From: Robiginitalea aurantiaca
GTDB taxonomy: Bacteria; Bacteroidota; Bacteroidia; Flavobacteriales; Flavobacteriaceae
Direction: 5' to 3'
DNA: 64,000 nucleotides
Assembly: GCF_030380815.1 (NCBI RefSeq)
Contig: NZ_JAUDUY010000012.1
Coordinates: forward strand, 1 to 64,000
Shown: one piece after another, positions 6,807-63,908 of the stretch
How positions within the stretch are numbered: position 1 is the first letter of the stretch
How the letters are laid out: each line of letters begins with the position of its first letter
Position numbers and translations under genes: made by a program
The notes under the pieces: generated by a model
What the model was told of the DNA's origin: nothing
The model's database searches: none
Seen by the model: only the letters and a program-made list of their open reading frames with translations

Positions 6807-8947
6807 GGATCTTTAAGCTCTTTTATTTGAAGGTCTTCATACATCAGGATGTAAGACGCCGTGTTGTAGTACCCGGTCTGCCAACCCTTCCAATAATTGA
6901 ATTTATTTCCGGTATAGGTAACCTCCCCTATCTGATCGGCGACCTTAAACAGGTCAAGGTCGTAGGCGAGACGCAGCAACATATCCATGCCCAGGTCAAA
7001 CCCGCGAACCGCATACCTGTCCGGTTCCCCGCTAAAACGCCGGCGATACCTCCTGGCAAAAGCAGCCGTAGTGCTCTCACGTGTCACCGAGGGAAAAGTA
7101 AATTTCAGTTTAGACAAATGGGGTACTGAGATCACGTCGTTTTCAAAGGCTTTGTTCCTGTGGGTGGTCAACATCCTGATCTGGGTGGTATCGGAATTTG
7201 CGGAATTCAAAATTGAACTCACACTTGAGGCGATTTTAAAGTCATCGGTTTCCACAAAAATCCAGTTTTCGGCTTCCTGTGACAACTGGCTTACGAGTAC
7301 CTCCAGATCCAGAGAGATGTTTTCCTCTTCCTCCCTGAGTTCAACCAGCGTGGCTGCAGGAAACGTTTCGAGGATCTGCATTTCGGCATCCTGATTCTTC
7401 TGATCGGAAATGATCAGTATTTTTTCATCATTGACCTGCTCTTTGACAAAATCGAGCATGTGTGTTCGCAGACGGGCTTCAGGGGTAAAGGAATAAAACA
7501 GATTCTCCATGGGGATCTCCTGTCCTATGGGCAGCGGAGCCACTACCGGTACGTTGAGTTCCGATGCCTTCGAAGCGACTTCTTTGATGGACTCCTGGGA
7601 CAGTGGCCCCAGAATTGCACTGTAAGCTCCAAGGTCTTCCCGAAGCATCAGATTTTGGACATGCTCCGTACTGAGCTCGGTATCCAGGGTTTTCACATCT
7701 ACTGAAACTCCCAATTCAGCAATAGAATCCAGGGCAACCAAAAACCCTGAATAGAGGCCCAGACTGTATTGGAGGGCATTGTTTTGCTCAATGCGCTTCT
7801 GAGTTCCTTCATCATCGTCTAAATCCAGTCGATCCAAACGAAAAGGGAGCAATACCAGAACTCTGGGGATGTTTTCCGTATTTATGCTGTCCTTAAGGCT
7901 AAAAGGCGGTAATACAAGGTCATTTTTTACCTCAAGATTCATTGCCTTATCCCTGGGGATCTGGAGTACCATGCCCGCTTTAAGGCCCGAGGCAATTTCG
8001 GGGTTGGCATTCAATAAATCCGCATATCCAATCCCGAGTTGTCGGGTGAGGGAATACTGCGTCTGTTTTGGGCGTACTTCGTAAAACACATACTCACTTT
8101 CAGGTAGTGATTCGGGCTGTTTCTCAGGCAGCCGAAGTACCATCCCTTCCTTAAGCCCCCCCTGCTCGACGATTTCGGGGTTGAGCCGCAGAATTTCTTC
8201 TCTTGAAATACCGTATTCCTGACTCAGGCTATACAGGGTCTGCTTTGGTGGGACGGTAAAGGAAGTGTAGAGGATGGCAGCTTCTTCCATAATATCGCTT
8301 CCTGCCGGTTTTGGAAGCTTAAGCTCTTGTCCCGCCGCCAGGTAACTCGTGTTGTCCGGGAGTTCAGGATTGAGCTTGACAAGGCTGTCCACGGTAATTT
8401 TGAATTTATGGGCGATACTCCACCTGGTTTCGCGCGGCTGCACTTTGTACGAGATTAATTCGATTTCGCCTGCTTCCGGATCTGGTGAAGTACCCGGGGC
8501 ATACCTGGGAATTCGCAGCATCATTCCTTTTTGAAGCGATCCCGAATACAGGTCGGGGTTATAGCGTTTTAACCGGTCTTCAGAGACCTCGTATCGACGC
8601 GAAATGCTGTACAGGGTTTCCTTCCTGCGCACCCGATGCGATTGAAAACCAATGGGTTTGTCAATTTCTGTGGTATCCGTAACACGGGTCTGCTGCTGAC
8701 CAGATGCAACAGGCTGTGCCCCGGAGCTCGGGATAACGATGATCGTATTCGGCCTCAGGGCCGTATCAGGTGTGAGCTCCTTGTTGAATCGCAGGATTTC
8801 CTGAGTGCTCACCTGATATTGCTGAGCCACAGATTCCAGGGTCTCTCCCTGTTTTACGGCATGTGTTCTGAACTGCTGTGCCTTTGCTTTGCATCCAAAG
8901 GCCAGGAGCAGAATTCCCAATAAGATCCAATGCTGTGCAAACCTCAT
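6803..8947 (-). CDS. LysM-repeat lipoprotein with periplasmic-binding-protein fold
   Basis: About 714 residues from ATG 8947; an alternative ATG at 8959 overlaps the guaA stop. The N-terminus LLGILLLAFGC looks like a lipoprotein signal. Five LysM modules of about 45-60 residues follow (opening with HAVKQGETL, HRVRRKETL, YKVQPRETR, FTVPPKQTL, YEVRPKQTQ), predicted to bind peptidoglycan. After about residue 350 comes a type I periplasmic-binding-protein fold (RVLVLLPFRLDRL, then AILGPLSQESIKEVAS and LNVPVVAPL), as in ABC-transporter substrate-binding proteins and in LpoA. A wall-linked sensor or cell-wall synthesis regulator is a reasonable guess, but no ligand can be named. It sits between guaA and an OsmC gene in one operon. 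Confidence 0.85.
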   Translation of the reverse strand: MRFAQHWILLGILLLAFGCKAKAQQFRTHAVKQGETLESVAQQYQVSTQEILRFNKELTPDTALRPNTIIVIPSSGAQPVASGQQQTRVTDTTEIDKPIGFQSHRVRRKETLYSISRRYEVSEDRLKRYNPDLYSGSLQKGMMLRIPRYAPGTSPDPEAGEIELISYKVQPRETRWSIAHKFKITVDSLVKLNPELPDNTSYLAAGQELKLPKPAGSDIMEEAAILYTSFTVPPKQTLYSLSQEYGISREEILRLNPEIVEQGGLKEGMVLRLPEKQPESLPESEYVFYEVRPKQTQYSLTRQLGIGYADLLNANPEIASGLKAGMVLQIPRDKAMNLEVKNDLVLPPFSLKDSINTENIPRVLVLLPFRLDRLDLDDDEGTQKRIEQNNALQYSLGLYSGFLVALDSIAELGVSVDVKTLDTELSTEHVQNLMLREDLGAYSAILGPLSQESIKEVASKASELNVPVVAPLPIGQEIPMENLFYSFTPEARLRTHMLDFVKEQVNDEKILIISDQKNQDAEMQILETFPAATLVELREEEENISLDLEVLVSQLSQEAENWIFVETDDFKIASSVSSILNSANSDTTQIRMLTTHRNKAFENDVISVPHLSKLKFTFPSVTRESTTAAFARRYRRRFSGEPDRYAVRGFDLGMDMLLRLAYDLDLFKVADQIGEVTYTGNKFNYWKGWQTGYYNTASYILMYEDLQIKELKDP

Positions 8948-55041: not shown

Positions 55042-55226
55042 AATCAGAGGGATTTTGAGTAGAATGTTACGGGTCTCATTAAAACTTATGGTCCCGTATA
55101 CGCTATAACCACTCGGACCTGTCCACTTGGTCTGCGCATACCTTAAATTTAAATGCAAATGGGCTAAAAAGACAATGACTTGGATCAGCTAGTGCCTTTC
55201 TTTTTGAATGTAAAGACTAAATAGGG

Positions 55227-55322
55227 CATTGCAGTATTAAGATTTCCCAGGATTACTATGGGAAGTTTGTTCAGAAAAGGGTTAGCGAAGAGATGATGCG
55301 GATTTCAAAGAAGCTAAATTGA
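55227..55322 (+). repeat. Left copy of a direct repeat flanking a DUF6090 gene; looks like a gene end
   Basis: About 75 bp matches 56163-56262 closely, reading TACTATGGGAAG, TTCAGAAAAGGG and TTAGCGA. On the plus strand it encodes IKISQDYYGKFVQKRVSEEM then MRISKKLN and a TGA stop. Differences between the copies are mostly conservative, so it may be the 3' remnant of a lost gene. Confidence 0.5.
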
Positions 55323-55378: not shown

Positions 55379-56113
55379 TCATTCACGCATCGCCAGCTCA
55401 ATATCTATTTGATTAACAACATAAACAGCAGCTTCCTTAGCATCGGTATATATTGACTGAACACTCAACATCTTAATTGATGCATCAATTAATTTTTTAG
55501 TAAAAAATTTATCGTTTAAAATGGATTGATATTTTTTTTCATCGATTACCCACCCAGTATTTGAGTCAAAATAAATGTAATCAGACATCAGTTCTTCATA
55601 TATGGAGAGATAGTCATATTGTTTCGATTCGTTTTCAAAAAGTGCAACATAAGCGTATCTAAACTCGTACAATCTGCTTATACTGTCCCTGAGTTCTTTG
55701 TTTGAAATGATAGATAATCCTTTAGTCTTTGCTTCGTCAAAATAAGAAGTGTGCAGCATTATGGACATATTGGAACGCCATAAATCTGAAAGCTTGTCAT
55801 TTACCAAAGAGTCTAATGGTTTCTTGTCCGCAATATGATAAAAGACAATGGAGTCTCTTGTCCACATTTCTTCATATCTCCTTATATTATGATTTAAATC
55901 CAAGGTATCCATCAGAATATTTTGTTTAATCCCCTTTAAAATATCTAGTTCAGCTACCTCTAATTTTCTTCCTTCATTCCAATTATTAATACTCAACGCA
56001 ATCAAAATACCAATCACTACCAATACAATCTCCCCAATAGCATACCTCATATATTTCAATGGCTTGTTATCATCAGCAAATTGTTTTCGGATTTTACGAA
56101 AGAAGTTGATCAT
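55379..56113 (-). CDS. DUF6090 family membrane protein, copy A
   Basis: 244 residues. The N-terminus INFFRKIRKQFADDNKPLKY is basic and faces the cytoplasm; one membrane helix follows (AIGEIVLVVIGILIALSI) with the family motif NNWNE just after it. The remaining 200 residues are charged and helical, probably periplasmic. DUF6090 proteins are common in Flavobacteria and have no known role. This is the most divergent of the five copies here and is AT-rich. It is flanked by direct repeats (55227-55322 and 56163-56262). Confidence 0.85.
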   Translation of the reverse strand: MINFFRKIRKQFADDNKPLKYMRYAIGEIVLVVIGILIALSINNWNEGRKLEVAELDILKGIKQNILMDTLDLNHNIRRYEEMWTRDSIVFYHIADKKPLDSLVNDKLSDLWRSNMSIMLHTSYFDEAKTKGLSIISNKELRDSISRLYEFRYAYVALFENESKQYDYLSIYEELMSDYIYFDSNTGWVIDEKKYQSILNDKFFTKKLIDASIKMLSVQSIYTDAKEAAVYVVNQIDIELAMRE

Positions 56114-56162
56114 AGCAAAGCAGCGGTTGGTTATACTCCCAAGGTAGGGAATTATCAGGGCA

Positions 56163-56262
56163 CTAAGGGTTGAAGGTTACCCAGGAATACTATGGGAAGA
56201 TTTTTCAGAAAAGGGTTAGCGAGGAAATGGGGAGGATTTCAGAAAAGCTTAGCTCTTCTTAA
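56163..56262 (+). repeat. Right copy of the direct repeat flanking DUF6090 copy A
   Basis: Second copy of the repeat at 55227-55322. In the plus frame it reads LKVTQEYYGKIFQKRVSEEM then GRISEKLSSS and TAA. The 180 bp after it (to 56442) holds no gene. Confidence 0.5.
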
Positions 56263-56442: not shown

Positions 56443-57267
56443 CTAATCTAAAACGAAAATGGGCTTTATCGATGGTTCCGGAACTTGGATGGACCTATTT
56501 CTGAACTCATTTTCTATGTCAATTAATAAAAGTGTAGACTTATTCCTAAGATCCACGAGGTATTCTTTAAAAACCCCATGCTTTCCTGAATAAAACCCAA
56601 GTGAAAGTTCAAACGATTTGAAGGATTCCGACGTCCTATCATTGATCCATTGCCAATCATCGGAATCTTCTAGCATTTCAATTGTCCAGGGACTCCAGTC
56701 TCCTTCATAGGCAAAAAAGTGTTTCTGGGCTTTGCTTTGTATAAAAAAGTGCGACATAAACTGAATGGTAGTATTATTAAATTCTTCAAAATGCTTTTCA
56801 GCTACATCCACCTGACGATAGAATTCCAATATTTCTGTTTTGAGTTCATCGTTTCTGATGATATTAATTAGGCCTGCATTATTCATTTCAGAGAATGTGT
56901 TATCTCTTATGCTCAGGGCCTCAGACGACCAATCAAGTTTATTAAAAGATTCAAAAAAATCTCGTGAGCTTGATATTTCAGCGTAAGAGATCAGTAAAGC
57001 GTTCTTATGATCCGCAATTACTTTATCCGCATATTTTATTCGACGATTATAGTAGGCAGTATCATTTGCAAGATCTGAATGAAGGCGTATGAGATATTCA
57101 ATTTCAGTATTGGAGGTTTGTCGATCCTGATTCCAGTTATCCACTTGAAGTGCAATCAATATCCCAATCACTACCAACAGTATCTCCCCAACGGCATATA
57201 GCAGGTATTTGCTGAAATTATTATCAGTAATGAGTCTTTGGCGAATCTGTCGGAAGAAGCGGAGCAT
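56443..57267 (-). CDS. DUF6090 family membrane protein, copy B
   Basis: 274 residues. The first 50 residues (MLRFFRQIRQRL, NNFSKYLLYAVGEILLVV, IGILIALQVDNWN) are nearly identical to copies C and E, while the rest is different. The C-terminal region is charged, with coiled-coil-like stretches, and ends PEPSIKPIFVLD. It is the last gene of the cyclase operon, 27 bp after copy C. Confidence 0.87.
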   Translation of the reverse strand: MLRFFRQIRQRLITDNNFSKYLLYAVGEILLVVIGILIALQVDNWNQDRQTSNTEIEYLIRLHSDLANDTAYYNRRIKYADKVIADHKNALLISYAEISSSRDFFESFNKLDWSSEALSIRDNTFSEMNNAGLINIIRNDELKTEILEFYRQVDVAEKHFEEFNNTTIQFMSHFFIQSKAQKHFFAYEGDWSPWTIEMLEDSDDWQWINDRTSESFKSFELSLGFYSGKHGVFKEYLVDLRNKSTLLLIDIENEFRNRSIQVPEPSIKPIFVLD

Positions 57268-57294
57268 ATATATAGTTAAATCCTTTGGTGCTAA

Positions 57295-58035
57295 TTAAAT
57301 TGCGGATAATTCGCTCTCAATCATTTCAATCGTCCTTTTGATTTGACTGCGAGCCTCTTTAAGCTGCATGTTAAAAATACTTAGGGTCCCCCGGGTCATC
57401 TTTAAGTTAAGCAGGTATGCCTTATTATATTGAAGGGCCTTAGGGTTCACAGGGCGGAGGTCAAGCTGAAGCGATCCATCTCCAAAATCCGGCAGGAACT
57501 CAAAGCCTATCTGGTCGTGTGTGTTTCTGAAATGCAGGCTATTGTTTTTTTGTTCGTTCTGCCAGTAAAAAAGGTCCTCATAAACCACATCGTACAGGTT
57601 TGAAATTTGGTGGCCCAACTCCTTATTTGAAAGATTCTGAATTCCAAACACCTTTAATGTTTCGTATGGGGCATCCTTTACAGAAAATAATTTGGTCCAA
57701 AATGTATGTTTGAAATGGGGAATTAACGAGTCACGATAGGGCAGCTTTTGATCAATCCATTGCACTATAAAATCCTGACTTCTGATAAACTGCTCGTGAT
57801 CCGAAATGCAAAGATTGATCAGGTTGAGGTCTGATATTAATCCTTCCTGAACTTCTTCCAAAAGTTCATTTTCCTGCGCCAGGGCTTTCCGGTTTTCATT
57901 CCAGTTATCCACCTGCAACGCAATCAGAATTCCAATGACTACCAATAGAATCTCTCCAACCGCATACAGCAGGTATTTGCTGAACTTGTTATCAGTCAGG
58001 AGGCGCTGGCGTATCTGTCGGAAGAAGCGAAGCAT
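57295..58035 (-). CDS. DUF6090 family membrane protein, copy C
   Basis: 246 residues. Conserved anchor as in copy B (RLLTDNKFSKYLLYAVGE, VDNWNENRK), then a separate C-terminal region (LEEVQEGLISDLNLINLCISDHEQ at its start). Its ATG overlaps the stop of copy D (TAATG), so translation is coupled. It is the third gene of the operon. Confidence 0.87.
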   Translation of the reverse strand: MLRFFRQIRQRLLTDNKFSKYLLYAVGEILLVVIGILIALQVDNWNENRKALAQENELLEEVQEGLISDLNLINLCISDHEQFIRSQDFIVQWIDQKLPYRDSLIPHFKHTFWTKLFSVKDAPYETLKVFGIQNLSNKELGHQISNLYDVVYEDLFYWQNEQKNNSLHFRNTHDQIGFEFLPDFGDGSLQLDLRPVNPKALQYNKAYLLNLKMTRGTLSIFNMQLKEARSQIKRTIEMIESELSAI

Positions 58036-58829
58036 TAGTTATTCAATCGATTAATTTCACTCTGAATTAGCTCAATCGTTTCACTGGCCATCCTCTTCTC
58101 CTGGTTCAAATAACCCAGAGTAATACTTCTGGCTACAATGATATCATTGAGCAACCCCGGGAACTCAGGAATCTCAGATAATTCTTTTGTGATTAGTCGT
58201 CCAGCCGTCCTTAGTTTATACGTTTTCCAGCGGGAATCATCCGGATACGGGCGTTTCCACATAAAGTCTATATCCAATTTGTCTTCTGTGGTGAGAATAT
58301 TTCGTACAAGTTCCCGGTACATATAAATCCATGCGTACCATTCTTCATTTTCATCTTTTCTCTGTACCTGAAGCCCCTTCCAATTGTTTAAAACCGTTTT
58401 TAACGAGTCATTTTCAATTAGTGTGAATCGACCCGTTGAACTAAGTTCGGATGAGGTAGGCAAGTCTATACTATAAAAGTTTATTGCGCCCGTAAATTCA
58501 ATGGAGACGGCTAATTTGAGGGTGTCCAAACTTTCTAGTTGGCCATTTAGGAAGTCTGCCTGGAACACGGCCAAATCTCTTAACTCCTCCTCCCACCAGC
58601 TATGATGTTCAGCGTCCCTGTAAAAATTCTCAAAGTCTGATTTTAAACGAACGAGGTAGTTTCGGTAAAGGTTCCTTTCCTTTCTTTTCTCGTTCCAATT
58701 ATCAATCTGCAGCGCAATCAGAATTCCAATCACCACCAGCAATATCTCCCCAATGGCATATCTGGAATACTGAAAGAACTTGTTTTCTTTGGCGAGCTGT
58801 TTTCGTATTCGATTGAAGAAGCGTGGCAT
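58035..58829 (-). CDS. DUF6090 family membrane protein, copy D
   Basis: 264 residues. The anchor differs more (MPRFFNRIRKQLAKENKFFQY, then AIGEILLVVIGILIALQIDN), followed by a distinct helical C-terminal region (YRNYLVRLKSDFENFYRD). It begins 3 bp after the cyclase stop and ends in the start of copy C. Confidence 0.87.
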   Translation of the reverse strand: MPRFFNRIRKQLAKENKFFQYSRYAIGEILLVVIGILIALQIDNWNEKRKERNLYRNYLVRLKSDFENFYRDAEHHSWWEEELRDLAVFQADFLNGQLESLDTLKLAVSIEFTGAINFYSIDLPTSSELSSTGRFTLIENDSLKTVLNNWKGLQVQRKDENEEWYAWIYMYRELVRNILTTEDKLDIDFMWKRPYPDDSRWKTYKLRTAGRLITKELSEIPEFPGLLNDIIVARSITLGYLNQEKRMASETIELIQSEINRLNN

Positions 58830-58832
58830 GGT

Positions 58833-60800
58833 CTATATGGTTACTTTCGATTCAATTTCTGCGAAGTACATCTGCAATACTTGGCCATTCTTCACTTCAA
58901 GTTCTCCCCGATATGTAAAGTCATATTTGTCCTTTAACAGTTGATAGCTGCTTTCAGAGACATTGATTCTGCCTGGCTCAGACTTGGACTCCATTCGAGC
59001 TGCGAAATTTACCGTGCTTCCCCAGATGTCGTATGCGAACTTCTTTGTGCCCACTACTCCTGCCACAACCGGCCCAGAATTTAAGCCTATTCGTATCTCG
59101 AACGGATGGATATTGGGCGGTGGATTCTGCTTGGTCTCCTCCACAAAATCTCGAATTTCTATTGCTGCCTTCATCGCATCTTCGGCGTGCGTTTCATTTT
59201 GCTTGGGAATACCTCCAGCACACATATATGCGTCTCCTATGGTTTTTATCTTTTCTAGTCCGTGTTTCTCTACAATAGCATCAAAATACCTGAAATAGTA
59301 GTCTACGCTGTCTACCAGTTTTTCTGGGGATATACTCTCGGCAATTACTGAGAAGCCTTTGAAATCTGTAAAAAGAACGGTGATTTGTTGGAATTGTTTG
59401 GCCTTAATTCTTCCGTTTGCTTTCAGCTCTTTGGCTGTTTCCTCCGGCAGAATATTCAAAAGGATTTCATCTGAACGGTCTTTTTCTTTTGCTATTTGGT
59501 TCTTGGCTTTTCTTATAAACAAGAACCGGTTAATTAATCCTAGTATGACTAAAACTAATAGCCCAAGGCCTATGTATAAGAATAGCTTAGCCTGCTGGTC
59601 TTTTTCCCGCTCTAAATCCCTCTCTAATTCATATTGTATTCTTTGATTTTCATACTGATTCAAATACTCGCGTTCTTTTAACTCTGTTATGGTTGATAAT
59701 GTCTTTCTAAACTCTCCATAGTCCAACTTACTTATTGAATCCCGAACTTGCACATACTTATCCTTTGCAAACAAGGCGTTCCTGTAATCATTCAAAAGTG
59801 TGTAAGCTGTAGACATTCCTAATAACGCCTCTGCTTTTTGGCTAAGCATTTGATTTTCATTAATAATCTTCAGAGCATCATTAAAATATTCTATGGCATT
59901 ATTAGTTGAACCTAACTCTATGTAGGATTTTCCAAGTCCAATATTTGCTCTGACTTCCTCAGAAAATGTTCCGTAATAAGAAGCAGAATCCAATCCCTGC
60001 CTATAATATTCCTCTGCTTTTTTATAGTCCTCTAATTTGAAGTGTGCCTCCCCTAAAAAATTCAAGGGAGTTGATGGGTCTAAACCCAATTCCTGAAATG
60101 CTTCTAAGGAGCCTTTTAAAAATAGTAAAGAGGCCTCTGGATTATCCTTCTTAAGATACATTTCTCCAATATTTATTTTGCCTACCGCCAGTCCGATGGA
60201 ATAATCAATTTGGTCAAAGAAAGGAAGTGCTTTTTTGTAATTTTCTATCGCTTGGTCATAGGTTGATTTATCATTGGTATAAATTGTGCCAAGATTTACA
60301 TATGCTGTGCCAATCCTCAATGGGTCTTCCACTATTTGTGCATATCTCAGTGAACGTATGAAATAATCCAATGCCTTAGGGGCGTATCCTTGAGTTTGAT
60401 AAACGGAGCCCAGATTATTCAGCAGATTGCTCATTCCTAATGTATCCCCCGAATGTTCGTAGATGCTCAATGACCTTTTGAAATAATCATCTGCCATGAA
60501 AAAGTTCCCCCTATCTGACTCTACCAATCCAATAGCTTTAAGACCTTCCGCAAGACCATCAACATAGTCCAATTCTTCAGAAATTTCTACCGCCTTTCTT
60601 GAGAAGACTAATGAGGAATCGGAATTTCGGAATCTCAACTCCGATGCTTTTTCCAGAAGTTTTCTGACATAGTTGGTGTCTGGATCTTGCACTTTCATCT
60701 CACCTGACTCCCAATCAGAAAGTTGGGCATTCCCGACCACCGAAAACGCCAATAGGAATAATAGGTTGAGGAATCTAAGATTTCGATCTAGGAAAGACAT
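58833..60800 (-). CDS. Membrane-bound TPR-adenylate cyclase (class III)
   Basis: 655 residues. A signal or anchor lies at the N-terminus (LRFLNLLFLLAFSVVGNAQ). Residues about 45-370 contain TPR repeats (GNFFMADDYFKRSLSIYEHSG and similar units), a coiled-coil follows, a membrane helix lies at 406-429 (LFLYIGLGLLVLVILGL), and the catalytic domain covers about 472-650. Metal Asp are D479 (LFTDFKGFS) and D523 (TIGDAYM). K519 and D591 (YDIWG) are the purine-selecting pair of adenylate cyclases, not the Glu/Cys of guanylate cyclases. Transition-state residues N598 and R602 (VNFAAR) are present, so it should make cAMP. TPR repeats outside and catalysis inside suggest a signal receptor. It heads an operon with three DUF6090 genes. 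Confidence 0.93.
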   Translation of the reverse strand: MSFLDRNLRFLNLLFLLAFSVVGNAQLSDWESGEMKVQDPDTNYVRKLLEKASELRFRNSDSSLVFSRKAVEISEELDYVDGLAEGLKAIGLVESDRGNFFMADDYFKRSLSIYEHSGDTLGMSNLLNNLGSVYQTQGYAPKALDYFIRSLRYAQIVEDPLRIGTAYVNLGTIYTNDKSTYDQAIENYKKALPFFDQIDYSIGLAVGKINIGEMYLKKDNPEASLLFLKGSLEAFQELGLDPSTPLNFLGEAHFKLEDYKKAEEYYRQGLDSASYYGTFSEEVRANIGLGKSYIELGSTNNAIEYFNDALKIINENQMLSQKAEALLGMSTAYTLLNDYRNALFAKDKYVQVRDSISKLDYGEFRKTLSTITELKEREYLNQYENQRIQYELERDLEREKDQQAKLFLYIGLGLLVLVILGLINRFLFIRKAKNQIAKEKDRSDEILLNILPEETAKELKANGRIKAKQFQQITVLFTDFKGFSVIAESISPEKLVDSVDYYFRYFDAIVEKHGLEKIKTIGDAYMCAGGIPKQNETHAEDAMKAAIEIRDFVEETKQNPPPNIHPFEIRIGLNSGPVVAGVVGTKKFAYDIWGSTVNFAARMESKSEPGRINVSESSYQLLKDKYDFTYRGELEVKNGQVLQMYFAEIESKVTI

Positions 60801-60893: not shown

Positions 60894-61115
60894 ATGAACG
60901 AATCCGATTTTAAGAAGTATGCCGACCAGGAATTAGTCAAATGCCAACGTTACAAGCAGATATGGAAAAGTGCTACGAATCCAACCATTAAAAACAAGGC
61001 ATTCTTAGCCTGGTGTATTAAACGATTTCAATTACAGCAGATTCATTTCTACTCAGTTGAAAACATTACGCCATACAACCATTTCAGCATGGATGAGGCT
61101 GGTGGTTATTTCTGA
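60894..61115 (+). CDS. Small hypothetical protein
   Basis: 73 residues (MNESDFKKYADQELVKCQRYKQ). It has a plausible coding composition and reads away from the cyclase. The Lys- and aromatic-rich sequence with ATNPTIKNKAFLAWCIKRF has no recognised family. It could be a true small protein or a chance frame. Confidence 0.4.
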   Translation: MNESDFKKYADQELVKCQRYKQIWKSATNPTIKNKAFLAWCIKRFQLQQIHFYSVENITPYNHFSMDEAGGYF

Positions 61116-61245: not shown

Positions 61246-62814
61246 TTACCAGATAGGTGCATCAGGATCACAGTTCGTGAAATTGGGTTTAGGAAGCACC
61301 CAAAGAGGAGTTACAGTACTAAAATCGTTACACGCCACCACATTTTGGACATCCCATCCACCCAGATCCTGATTGAAGACTGAATCATAAAACATCAGGC
61401 GCATGTCGGAGACATTGCTTACATCCCAATCCCCAATAGGTTGGTTGAATGACGACAAAGCGAACATAGAACTCATTTTCGTTGCACTGCTTACATCCCA
61501 ATTGCCGATTGGCTGGTTGAACTCGGAATACAGGAACATTTCCGACATGTCAGTTACATTAGCAACATCCCAGTCGCTAATATTCTGATTAAAAGGGTGT
61601 GGATGTGTCATACTCCATGTAGATCCATTAAACATGCCGGACATATCTGTGACATTACCCACGTCCCAGGATCCAATATCCTGATTAAAAATGGAATGAG
61701 CGAACATATGTGACATCTCTGCAACACTACTTACATCCCAATCTCCAATAGGTTGGTTGAAACCTGAGAAATAGAACATATAGGACATGTCAGTCACATT
61801 GCCAACATCCCATGCGCTGATATCCTGATCGAACGGGTGTGTGAAAAACATATCGCCTCCCCCACCAAACATTCCTGACATATTTTCTACGCTGCTTACA
61901 TCCCAAACCCCAATGGGTTGATTGAAATCTGTCAATGCAAACAGGTTACTCATATCAGTGACATTGCTTACATCCCATGAGCGTATGGACATATCATTTA
62001 TAGAGAACTGAAGAGAAAATAAGTCACTCATATTGGTCACTTTTGTGGTACAGACCCGGGATACATCGGTTCCATTTTCAATCATTTCCCGTAACATGGT
62101 TTCATCCACGATGGTGTAGACCACCGCATCAACTACGTCTGTGCCAGCGATTACGCCTGTTTGACCAACTTCTGCCCATTCATAAGCCTTGATGGTCACA
62201 CCATTTTCGTCTAAGTAAATCGGAGAAGTTGTTGGACATCCTTGTTCATTTACATCCTCTCCTTCGGGTGTATTTGGACAAATATCCTTATCATCAGTTA
62301 TTCCATCCCCATCGGTGTCTTTTTGAGAATCAGCACACCCATTTTCATCCACGTCTTCTCCTTCAGGAGTTTCAGGGCAGGTATCGGTATTATCAAAAAT
62401 CCCATCCCCGTCTGAATCAATCTGTGAAGTAGAACAACCTTGTTCATTTACTTCTTCGCCCTCAGGGGTATTCAGACATTGATCCACATCGTCGAGGACT
62501 CCGTCATTATCTCCATCGGATTTTGCGAATACCAGGGTAATATTCATGTCGGTATCCATAGAAGCCTTGACAGGGTTTTCCGTGCTTTTGAGATCACCCA
62601 TCCATTCTTTGAAAACATAGCCTTCAGCAGGGGTGGCGGTGAGCGTGATCACGGTGCCATCGTCAAAGGTTCCCCCGTCAGGGGACACACTTCCGCCTTC
62701 TTCAGGGGATATGGTGACCGATAGAATGAACATTTCAGGGTCGTCATCTTTGGAACAGGTAAGGATCAGAAATAAAACCGGAAGTATGAGGAATATCCTC
62801 TTAAACAGTTTCAT
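61246..62814 (-). CDS. BspA-like repeat lipoprotein with calcium-binding repeats
   Basis: 522 residues. Lipoprotein signal MKLFKRIFLILPVLFLILTC. Residues about 30-95 resemble an InlB B-repeat (VTISPEEGGSVSPDGG, TPAEGYVFKEW). Three thrombospondin type 3-like units follow (DGDNDGVLDDVDQCLNTPEG, DSDGDGIFDNTDTCPETPEG, DTDGDGITDDKDICPNTPEG). From about residue 225 there are eight or so BspA/DUF285 repeats of about 25-40 residues with the core WDVSNVTDMSxMF and FNQPIGDWDVSS. These proteins are surface adhesins or antigens. No T9SS tail is seen; anchoring is by lipid. Confidence 0.92.
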   Translation of the reverse strand: MKLFKRIFLILPVLFLILTCSKDDDPEMFILSVTISPEEGGSVSPDGGTFDDGTVITLTATPAEGYVFKEWMGDLKSTENPVKASMDTDMNITLVFAKSDGDNDGVLDDVDQCLNTPEGEEVNEQGCSTSQIDSDGDGIFDNTDTCPETPEGEDVDENGCADSQKDTDGDGITDDKDICPNTPEGEDVNEQGCPTTSPIYLDENGVTIKAYEWAEVGQTGVIAGTDVVDAVVYTIVDETMLREMIENGTDVSRVCTTKVTNMSDLFSLQFSINDMSIRSWDVSNVTDMSNLFALTDFNQPIGVWDVSSVENMSGMFGGGGDMFFTHPFDQDISAWDVGNVTDMSYMFYFSGFNQPIGDWDVSSVAEMSHMFAHSIFNQDIGSWDVGNVTDMSGMFNGSTWSMTHPHPFNQNISDWDVANVTDMSEMFLYSEFNQPIGNWDVSSATKMSSMFALSSFNQPIGDWDVSNVSDMRLMFYDSVFNQDLGGWDVQNVVACNDFSTVTPLWVLPKPNFTNCDPDAPIW

Positions 62815-63092: not shown

Positions 63093-63908
63093 TTATTGCT
63101 GATTTAGTTCCTCTAAATAAGTTACAATCTCCATTTTTAGCATTTCCATCCGTTGCATCCTGCGCTCAATGCTGGCAAGTGCATTGAATGATCTGCCAAG
63201 GTCTCCAGTTAGATAATTTTCAAACTCAGGTCTTTTAAGGATGTTTTCAATCTCAAGTGGTAGGTCGCGCGTATCTTCAATGGCCGTTATGAATTCAAAT
63301 AATTCACTAAGATCATCAAGCTCTGAAGTTAACACATAAGAACCACTCTCGGCAGTTATGTAATTCTCTGGATATGTTGATAATATGGGTTCGAGGGAGG
63401 TTTCTAGCCATCTTGTGGTAGCAGTCAGAATGCCACTTAGTTCCCCAAAGTCAGCATAATACTGGTTGATGTTTTTGAGGATATCCTTATTTCGGAAGTA
63501 AGCAAAATCACCAGAGCTTTTAGAGGCTTCGTATGTTGAATTGTAGGTGATAGAGGAGGCCCCAAGATATAGTGGCTGAACGTGTTTGCCAATTTCCCGG
63601 CCGTCTACAATACTACCAGGCGTCCTTACTTTTCTAAGCAACCAACCGGCATTTTCAATCCTGTTTTTATAGAACTGGGTCAGCCCCTCCAATTTTAAAC
63701 TGTCTTTATTCAAATCACCGAGGATGTCACTGTAGAAAACCCGCTCTACCTTTAGGTTTTGCTTGTCTTCATTCCAACTATCCACCTGCAAGGCAATCAG
63801 AATACCAATAACCACCAACAAAATCTCACCCACTGCATACAGCAGGTATTTGCTGAACTTATTTTCAGTAATTAGTCTATGGCGAATCTGTCGGAAGAAT
63901 CTTATCAT
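63093..63908 (-). CDS. DUF6090 family membrane protein, copy E
   Basis: 271 residues. The anchor (MIRFFRQIRHRLITENKFSKY, then LYAVGEILLVVIGILIALQVD) matches copies B and C closely. The C-terminal region differs and contains DLNKDSLKLEGLTQFYKNRIE. It is separate from the operon, upstream of the BspA-like gene on the same strand after 278 bp. No gene is seen in 63909-64000. Confidence 0.87.
   Translation of the reverse strand: MIRFFRQIRHRLITENKFSKYLLYAVGEILLVVIGILIALQVDSWNEDKQNLKVERVFYSDILGDLNKDSLKLEGLTQFYKNRIENAGWLLRKVRTPGSIVDGREIGKHVQPLYLGASSITYNSTYEASKSSGDFAYFRNKDILKNINQYYADFGELSGILTATTRWLETSLEPILSTYPENYITAESGSYVLTSELDDLSELFEFITAIEDTRDLPLEIENILKRPEFENYLTGDLGRSFNALASIERRMQRMEMLKMEIVTYLEELNQQ

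Follow-up and report, generated by a model that had tools for sequence, protein, structure and literature searches.

A tetratricopeptide-repeat adenylate cyclase among DUF6090 genes of Robiginitalea aurantiaca: probably co-residents, possibly partners

Here we compare with described systems a group of genes at positions 56443-60800 of Robiginitalea aurantiaca contig NZ_JAUDUY010000012.1 (assembly GCF_030380815.1), in which a class III cyclase gene is followed by three genes of the DUF6090 family. The window is the whole stretch that was analysed, namely the first 64,000 nucleotides of this contig (coded C3 below), in a genome of 3.46 Mb. The closest systems are class III adenylate cyclases with a periplasmic tetratricopeptide repeat (TPR) region: the window cyclase has the same catalytic domain and the same metal-, adenine- and transition-state-type residues, but it is a duplicate at the genus level and lacks the HD and PycTM neighbours that typify its clade. 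Sister copies do adjoin a gene of the PycTM family (DUF5706 being, presumably, its older name), which recalls the Pycsar systems, composed of PycC plus PycTM. The PADLOC models of PycC also match the catalytic domain, at best with 66 bits. Pycsar may differ, however, in its specificity residues: K519 and D591 are invariant in all 59 TPR cyclases compared, whereas for Pycsar cyclases Y50, D94, and R97 are named for UTP in BcPycC and F100, R142, and Q144 for CTP in EaPycC (PMC11224242), apparently other residues than the Lys and Asp of the TPR cyclases. No PycTM effector gene lies beside the window cyclase in the region examined, and none of the neighbours' Pfam matches is to PycTIR, at which no profile search was aimed.

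For the DUF6090 proteins, the points of reference are the Pfam family itself (PF19578) and the four-helix-bundle sensor domains of Tar and NarQ. In the five window copies the Pfam match begins at residue 28, leaving a conserved cytoplasmic tail outside the model, and in divergent copies the model sees little beyond the membrane anchor, which makes up most of the match in the three operon copies. As in Tar and NarQ, a transmembrane (TM) helix is predicted to continue into a periplasmic helical bundle; the VIA-align Z of 8.4-9.1 falls in a range which that tool calls uninformative for helical bundles, and DUF6090, unlike those sensors, has no second TM-like stretch by hydropathy. Two parts of these proteins are compared below, the anchor and the C-terminal tail. 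DUF6090 is predicted to be a single-pass, N-in membrane protein in which the basic cytoplasmic tail and TM anchor are near-constant and the periplasmic helical domain diverges.

Our reading, to which we give a probability of roughly 60%, is that the window cyclase is a duplicate of a conserved cyclic AMP (cAMP) sensor, now located in a DUF6090-rich region, and that the DUF6090 proteins are its co-residents and not dedicated partners. The periplasmic TPR region would bind a ligand or a protein, the signal would pass through one TM helix, and the cytoplasmic domain would make cAMP, the cyclase working as a one-protein sensor, in keeping with its architecture and residues. The ancestral cyclase type would have kept its HD neighbour and, in many cases, one of the PycTM family; the duplicate would have arrived, by copying or relocation, in a variable region rich in DUF6090. 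DUF6090 proteins adjoin many unrelated genes and, in places, recombinase pieces. A sequence-only reading of the same DNA had taken the DUF6090 proteins for partners or inputs of the cyclase, which is possible but not the best reading.

The cyclase gene (58833-60800, minus strand) encodes 655 residues and was identified by Pfam, hydropathy, invariant catalytic residues, and tree placement. Its Guanylate_cyc match scores 181.2 bits against a curated cut-off of 21.9 and is accompanied by TPRs. The catalytic domain covers residues 466-646, and the TPR region lies N-terminal to the single internal TM-like stretch (406-424), with a signal-like stretch at 10-28; this layout suggests that the TPR sensor lies in the periplasm and the cyclase domain in the cytoplasm. 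D479, D523, K519, D591, N598, and R602 are each invariant in 59/59 TPR cyclases, and we take them to be the metal aspartates, the adenine-type Lys/Asp (K519/D591), and the transition-state Asn/Arg (N598/R602). Both the domain score and the catalytic residues are those of a class III adenylate cyclase, and cAMP made from ATP is the expected product. The membrane-anchored cyclase with adenylate-type K519, D591, N598, and R602 described in the sequence-only reading was thus correctly recognized, and its gene order is borne out by the coordinates of the open reading frames (ORFs): on the minus strand, the cyclase is followed after 3 bp by 58035-58829, which overlaps 57295-58035 by 1 bp, and a 27-bp gap leads to 56443-57267. 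Judging by these gaps, the three DUF6090 genes are probably co-transcribed with the cyclase.

On a tree of the 59 TPR cyclases, a copy from Robiginitalea sp. SC105 (L101) forms a pair with the window copy (support 100), and this pair is nested inside the Robiginitalea cyclases of the type found on contig C50 of the R. aurantiaca genome (supports 99 and 98). The window cyclase is thus most likely a Robiginitalea-specific duplicate of a TPR adenylate cyclase that is widespread in Flavobacteriaceae. An HD gene lies near 22 of the 59. In 21 cases it is downstream, three times with a PycTM gene in between; in the remaining case, G024, it is a 60-residue piece upstream, at the contig edge. The clustering of HD genes on the cyclase tree is stronger than in all 500 shuffles. 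DUF6090 is found near 5/59, unclustered (60 of 500 shuffles as low). When the C50 locus and those of four further Robiginitalea genomes were scanned with Pfam, PycTM exceeded its cut-off in 5/5 and HD reached E<0.01 in 4/5, exceeding its cut-off in one, and in G246, G206, and G166 the three genes share a strand and run cyclase, PycTM, HD. Neither gene is near the window copy or the L101 copy in the regions examined, and PycTM matches the genome twice, on C50 and on C33. What stays beside the cyclases of this clade is an HD gene and, in fewer cases, a PycTM gene. As a candidate for an undescribed cAMP module, the C50-type cyclase with HD and PycTM is stronger than the window operon. At C50 itself (L021, 8979-12534), an HD-like gene comes after the TPR adenylate cyclase, together with a gene of the PycTM family in convergent orientation. 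PF00027 gave six matches, which are possible cAMP receptors.

The region around the operon carries traces of recombinase genes. Two 3'-end remnants of tyrosine recombinase genes, both on the plus strand, lie at 56149-56250 (71% identical by tblastn to recombinase L294:18051-19265 across 34 aa) and at 55221-55316 (same type, 75% over 32 aa), and between them is a fourth DUF6090 gene (55379-56113, minus strand, 244 aa, Pfam 33.2 bits), situated 329 bp beyond 56443-57267. A 109-nt repeat, the two copies 76% identical, flanks this gene on both sides, and a third, weaker copy occurs near C3:69.0 kb, beyond the window. The recombinase that both remnants resemble lies 3 kb beyond a DUF6090 array in G206, where a recombinase is also found 58 bp from a DUF6090 gene, and on C33 and C11, too, DUF6090 regions contain recombinase sequences. 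We read the DUF6090 region around the operon as a variable island, with signs of mobility at a few copies; most have no recombinase piece. Integron-type cassette sites were rejected: the repeats (at about 55.2 and 56.2 kb and at C3:69.0 kb) showed no better folding than shuffled sequences when five strands were examined, and those at 55.2 and 56.2 kb correspond to the 3' ends of tyrosine recombinase genes. A recombination handle around DUF6090 genes was likewise discarded, there being little conservation upstream or downstream of 172 genes. Among plasmids and phages the 63093 protein had no match, and among viral contigs the five window DUF6090 proteins had no relative.

Seen from DUF6090, a cyclase is a rare neighbour. 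It makes up one of the 61 genes listed beside DUF6090 genes in the R. aurantiaca genome, and among the 58 that were scanned no Pfam family matches more than three (of the three others, one is itself a DUF6090 gene missed by the pattern and two seem to be chance frames). Elsewhere, 143 DUF6090 genes from six genomes have 118 flanking genes, and only the G206 cyclase is directly flanking. The eleven cyclase-adjacent DUF6090s require 9 changes on a tree of 62, where shuffles gave a mean of 10.3 and 82 of 500 were as low; being scattered in this way, they form no cyclase-linked subfamily. The receiver-cyclase of the genus points the same way: preceded by a receiver gene (L038, G000:C22, 7617-9031, G000 being the R. 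aurantiaca genome), it is kept in five Robiginitalea genomes, but DUF6090 lies directly behind it, overlapping its end by 4 bp and 103 bp, in only 2/5 (at one of the three other loci, 970 bp downstream were examined), and the two DUF6090 tails are 29% identical where the cyclases are 82% identical (285/346).

Seen from the cyclases, the picture depends on the genus. Gene to gene, among 57 cyclases found by phmmer in 68 regions (a set that covers part of the genus cyclases and leaves out weaker, Pfam-only ones), a DUF6090 gene on the same strand and no more than 1.3 kb away accompanies 7 of 35 in Robiginitalea (in one case the DUF6090 gene is frame-shifted) and 2 of 22 outside it (at 219 bp in G018, and an 84-residue fragment in G014). 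One more Robiginitalea cyclase, seen by Pfam only, has a DUF6090 129 bp away (G001 C142). A further 31 cyclase loci outside Robiginitalea, taken from 20 regions and 11 of 79 loci and leaving out Robiginitalea loci already counted and most distant matches, yielded no DUF6090 in the flanks examined, which reach up to 9-12 kb but sometimes far less, several ending at contig edges. Several of these loci belong to genomes in which at least 15 to at least 84 DUF6090 matches are listed, and 14 of 16 genomes checked (one of them Robiginitalea) carry the family. Among the loci examined, no cyclase-DUF6090 gene pair is kept across genera, the tight cases in two other genera involving other cyclase types.

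Several observations weigh against mere co-residence. In four Robiginitalea genomes, 11 of 32 cyclases have DUF6090 within 5 kb, compared with 9 of 242 HATPase_c and ABC control matches (P 8e-7 if independent), and 3/32 versus 1/242 have it within 500 bp, domain to domain; the 9 cyclases of G001, a genome with no control genes scored, were left out here, as were the weakest and unlisted ABC matches (133 of 163 used), and the P values are indicative, as the cut-offs were picked after seeing the data and close neighbours within the genus are partly orthologous. Measured against a random position at 5 kb, the signal is weaker than against control genes: 4/8 in R. aurantiaca (P 0.0025) and 4/10 in SC105 (G005; 0.008), and 2/8 in a Robiginitalea metagenome-assembled genome (G004; 0.09), 1/6 in R. 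marina (G009; 0.29), and 2/9 in G001 (0.11). Both members of the duplicate pair (window and SC105 L101) have a same-strand DUF6090 within 1 kb, and in both C50 and R. aestuariiviva (G006) a DUF6090 lies upstream of the cyclase-HD pair, these two DUF6090s pairing on the tree (98). Outside the genus, two DUF6090 genes lie 219 bp upstream of another cyclase in G018, a cyclase frame in G178 is two genes from a DUF6090, and in G206 six tandem same-strand DUF6090 genes begin 117 bp after a Pkinase-AAA-GAF-cyclase of 1714 residues (L294, G206:C11, 4935-15025, a region picked because of its cyclase, via one listed match). Two further points concern the island and the tails: two recombinase queries found only three sites in the regions of the own genome that were searched (C3, C33, and C11), and the tails of 14 cross-genus pairs of homologous neighbours score a mean of 0.48 per residue against 0.34 for random pairs, through one pair. 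If DUF6090 proteins served class III cyclases as membrane inputs or partners, their constant cytoplasmic tail and TM helix contacting the cyclase or a common cAMP component and their varied periplasmic domains sensing different things, the operon-like spacing, the enrichment, and the tight association with at least three cyclase architectures (TPR, receiver-cyclase, and Pkinase-AAA-GAF-cyclase with six) would find an explanation, and the predicted topologies of the two families are compatible, the variable parts of both probably facing the periplasm. We nonetheless consider this unlikely, in view of the 0/31 outside the genus (including genomes with at least 84, 34, and 28 DUF6090 matches), the 1/61 and 1/118 neighbours, the missing subfamily, and the discordant receiver-cyclase loci. 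The broader proposal, that DUF6090 is an undescribed, genome-expanded family of cAMP-signalling inputs in which a constant N-in tail and the TM helix would bind to class III cyclases, or to some shared cAMP component, and divergent periplasmic bundles would respond to different cues, seems to us improbable. If it were true, the window operon and the G206 cyclase with its six DUF6090 genes would be two builds of one system, and alongside it there would be another conserved module, joining the window's cyclase type to an HD protein and to a membrane protein of the PycTM family.

The enrichment could also be wholly regional, both families simply accumulating in the same variable, signalling-rich regions. 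Both orientations contribute to it (11/32 within 5 kb, only 7/32 on the same strand), and the presence of DUF6090 and its tails differ at orthologous loci, as such an origin would have it; yet some cyclase-DUF6090 cases are overlapping genes, and the HATPase_c and ABC controls are by our judgement mostly core genes, and we hold a purely regional origin to be distinctly improbable. More remote still is the suggestion that each DUF6090 tail is matched to whichever gene adjoins it, as a general tether or chaperone for secreted or membrane proteins with the cyclase as one client. By eye (uncounted), many neighbours start like secreted proteins or lipoproteins, and some neighbour families recur beside DUF6090 across genera. 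Only 1 of the 14 cross-genus pairs, however, has tails clearly alike, that is, above the 99% mark of random pairs, on which ground tail-neighbour matching was rejected. The other 13 include a 151-residue secreted-looking protein that is 100% identical in two genera (L302:5993-6448 in G178 and L313:17135-17590 in G080), reflecting recent transfer or a shared contaminant, and that adjoins a DUF6090 with an unlike tail in each. The sequence-only reading had made the cyclase-DUF6090 link hinge on the two lying together in other genomes: this was upheld to a moderate degree within Robiginitalea and in the tight cases of G018 and G206, but failed at the 31 further loci. Since the enrichment inside the genus is set against 0/31 outside it, mixed neighbours, and no subfamily, a functional link is possible, but partnership is not favoured over a duplicated cyclase among co-resident DUF6090 genes.

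The R. aurantiaca genome encodes eight class III cyclases and has 45 DUF6090 matches at E<=0.001, an expansion absent from the sequence-only reading, with 10 of them at 55.6-73 kb of the window contig. All five DUF6090 genes of the window are on the minus strand. The first behind the cyclase (58035-58829, 264 aa, 28.3 bits) has a long branch on the tree; the second (57295-58035, 246 aa) scores 22.2 bits and is the only one of the five to miss the gathering cut-off of 23.5; the third (56443-57267) has 274 aa and 29.9 bits. Upstream of the cyclase lies 63093-63908 (271 aa, 35.8 bits). Hydropathy gives each of the five proteins a single TM-like stretch at about residues 22-42, preceded by a tail with 5-7 Lys/Arg. 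NCBIfam has no family for the five, and PADLOC none for the four that were scanned. Among ten Robiginitalea genomes, the five with 6-10 cyclases have at least 30-47 DUF6090 matches and the five with 1-3 cyclases at least 6-12 (one of these genomes is 74% complete), in a tally without correction for phylogeny. In SC105 (L103, around 7420-8177), a DUF6090 gene upstream of a cyclase is split into frames of 94 and 158 residues by a frameshift or a sequence error.

Of the three operon copies, 57295 and 56443 share a near-identical anchor (94% over 47 residues), as the sequence-only reading had described for some copies, but 58035, the first in the run, is only 66-70% identical to these two. Across 43 DUF6090 proteins of the genome (903 pairs), median identity is 64% in the anchor, taken as residues 1-47, but 23% in the tail. 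Where two anchors are at least 85% identical (89 pairs), only 50% of the fourfold sites agree, compared with 27% expected of unrelated codons and 31% in pairs below 70% anchor identity; anchor constancy therefore stems mainly from selection acting on the protein and to some extent from common ancestry, and recent gene conversion was rejected as the main cause. A few pairs are recent copies, such as C11:550341 and 551269, with 93% DNA identity over the anchor. The tails, in turn, had been described as unrelated-looking, a view that did not hold: 61 of 62 match another tail at E<=0.01, a glycine is invariant in 12/12 aligned proteins, and models of 63093 and 57295 (mean pLDDT, the predicted local distance difference test, 75.0 and 77.9) show the same helix order, with a long helix running from the membrane into the periplasm, short helices, and two long helices. 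The 57295 tail matches 11 other tails, and the best match of the 56443 tail is the copy at G000:C49:1458 (33%). No known fold could be assigned to the tail, since Foldseek and VIA-align returned generic helical bundles only, and a profile search of PDB sequences with DUF6090 gave nothing below E 0.1.

The open-licence PubMed Central papers searched include no mention of DUF6090 or of DUF5706, no paper that combines PycTM with an HD domain, and none that combines Pycsar with adenylate cyclase and tetratricopeptide; Robiginitalea together with adenylate cyclase brings up only items that look unrelated. DUF6090 is thus unstudied in the literature searched, yet numerous, with 45 matches here and at least 84 in one relative, and its constant cytoplasmic tail and TM helix, joined to a freely varying periplasmic part, form a pattern in need of explanation. 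For cAMP signalling, the TPR adenylate cyclase beside HD, and often PycTM, in many of the Flavobacteriaceae sampled is the better lead, and it prompts us to ask whether PycTM-type proteins play a resident role with adenylate-type cyclases at all.

Between the upstream DUF6090 gene and the cyclase, the window encodes a lipoprotein-like protein with Pfam matches to DUF285, Flg_new_2, and TSP_3 (61246-62814, minus strand). A 73-residue ORF (60894-61115) is divergent from the cyclase, and by-eye comparison finds a similar protein encoded about 4 kb from the sister cyclase of SC105.

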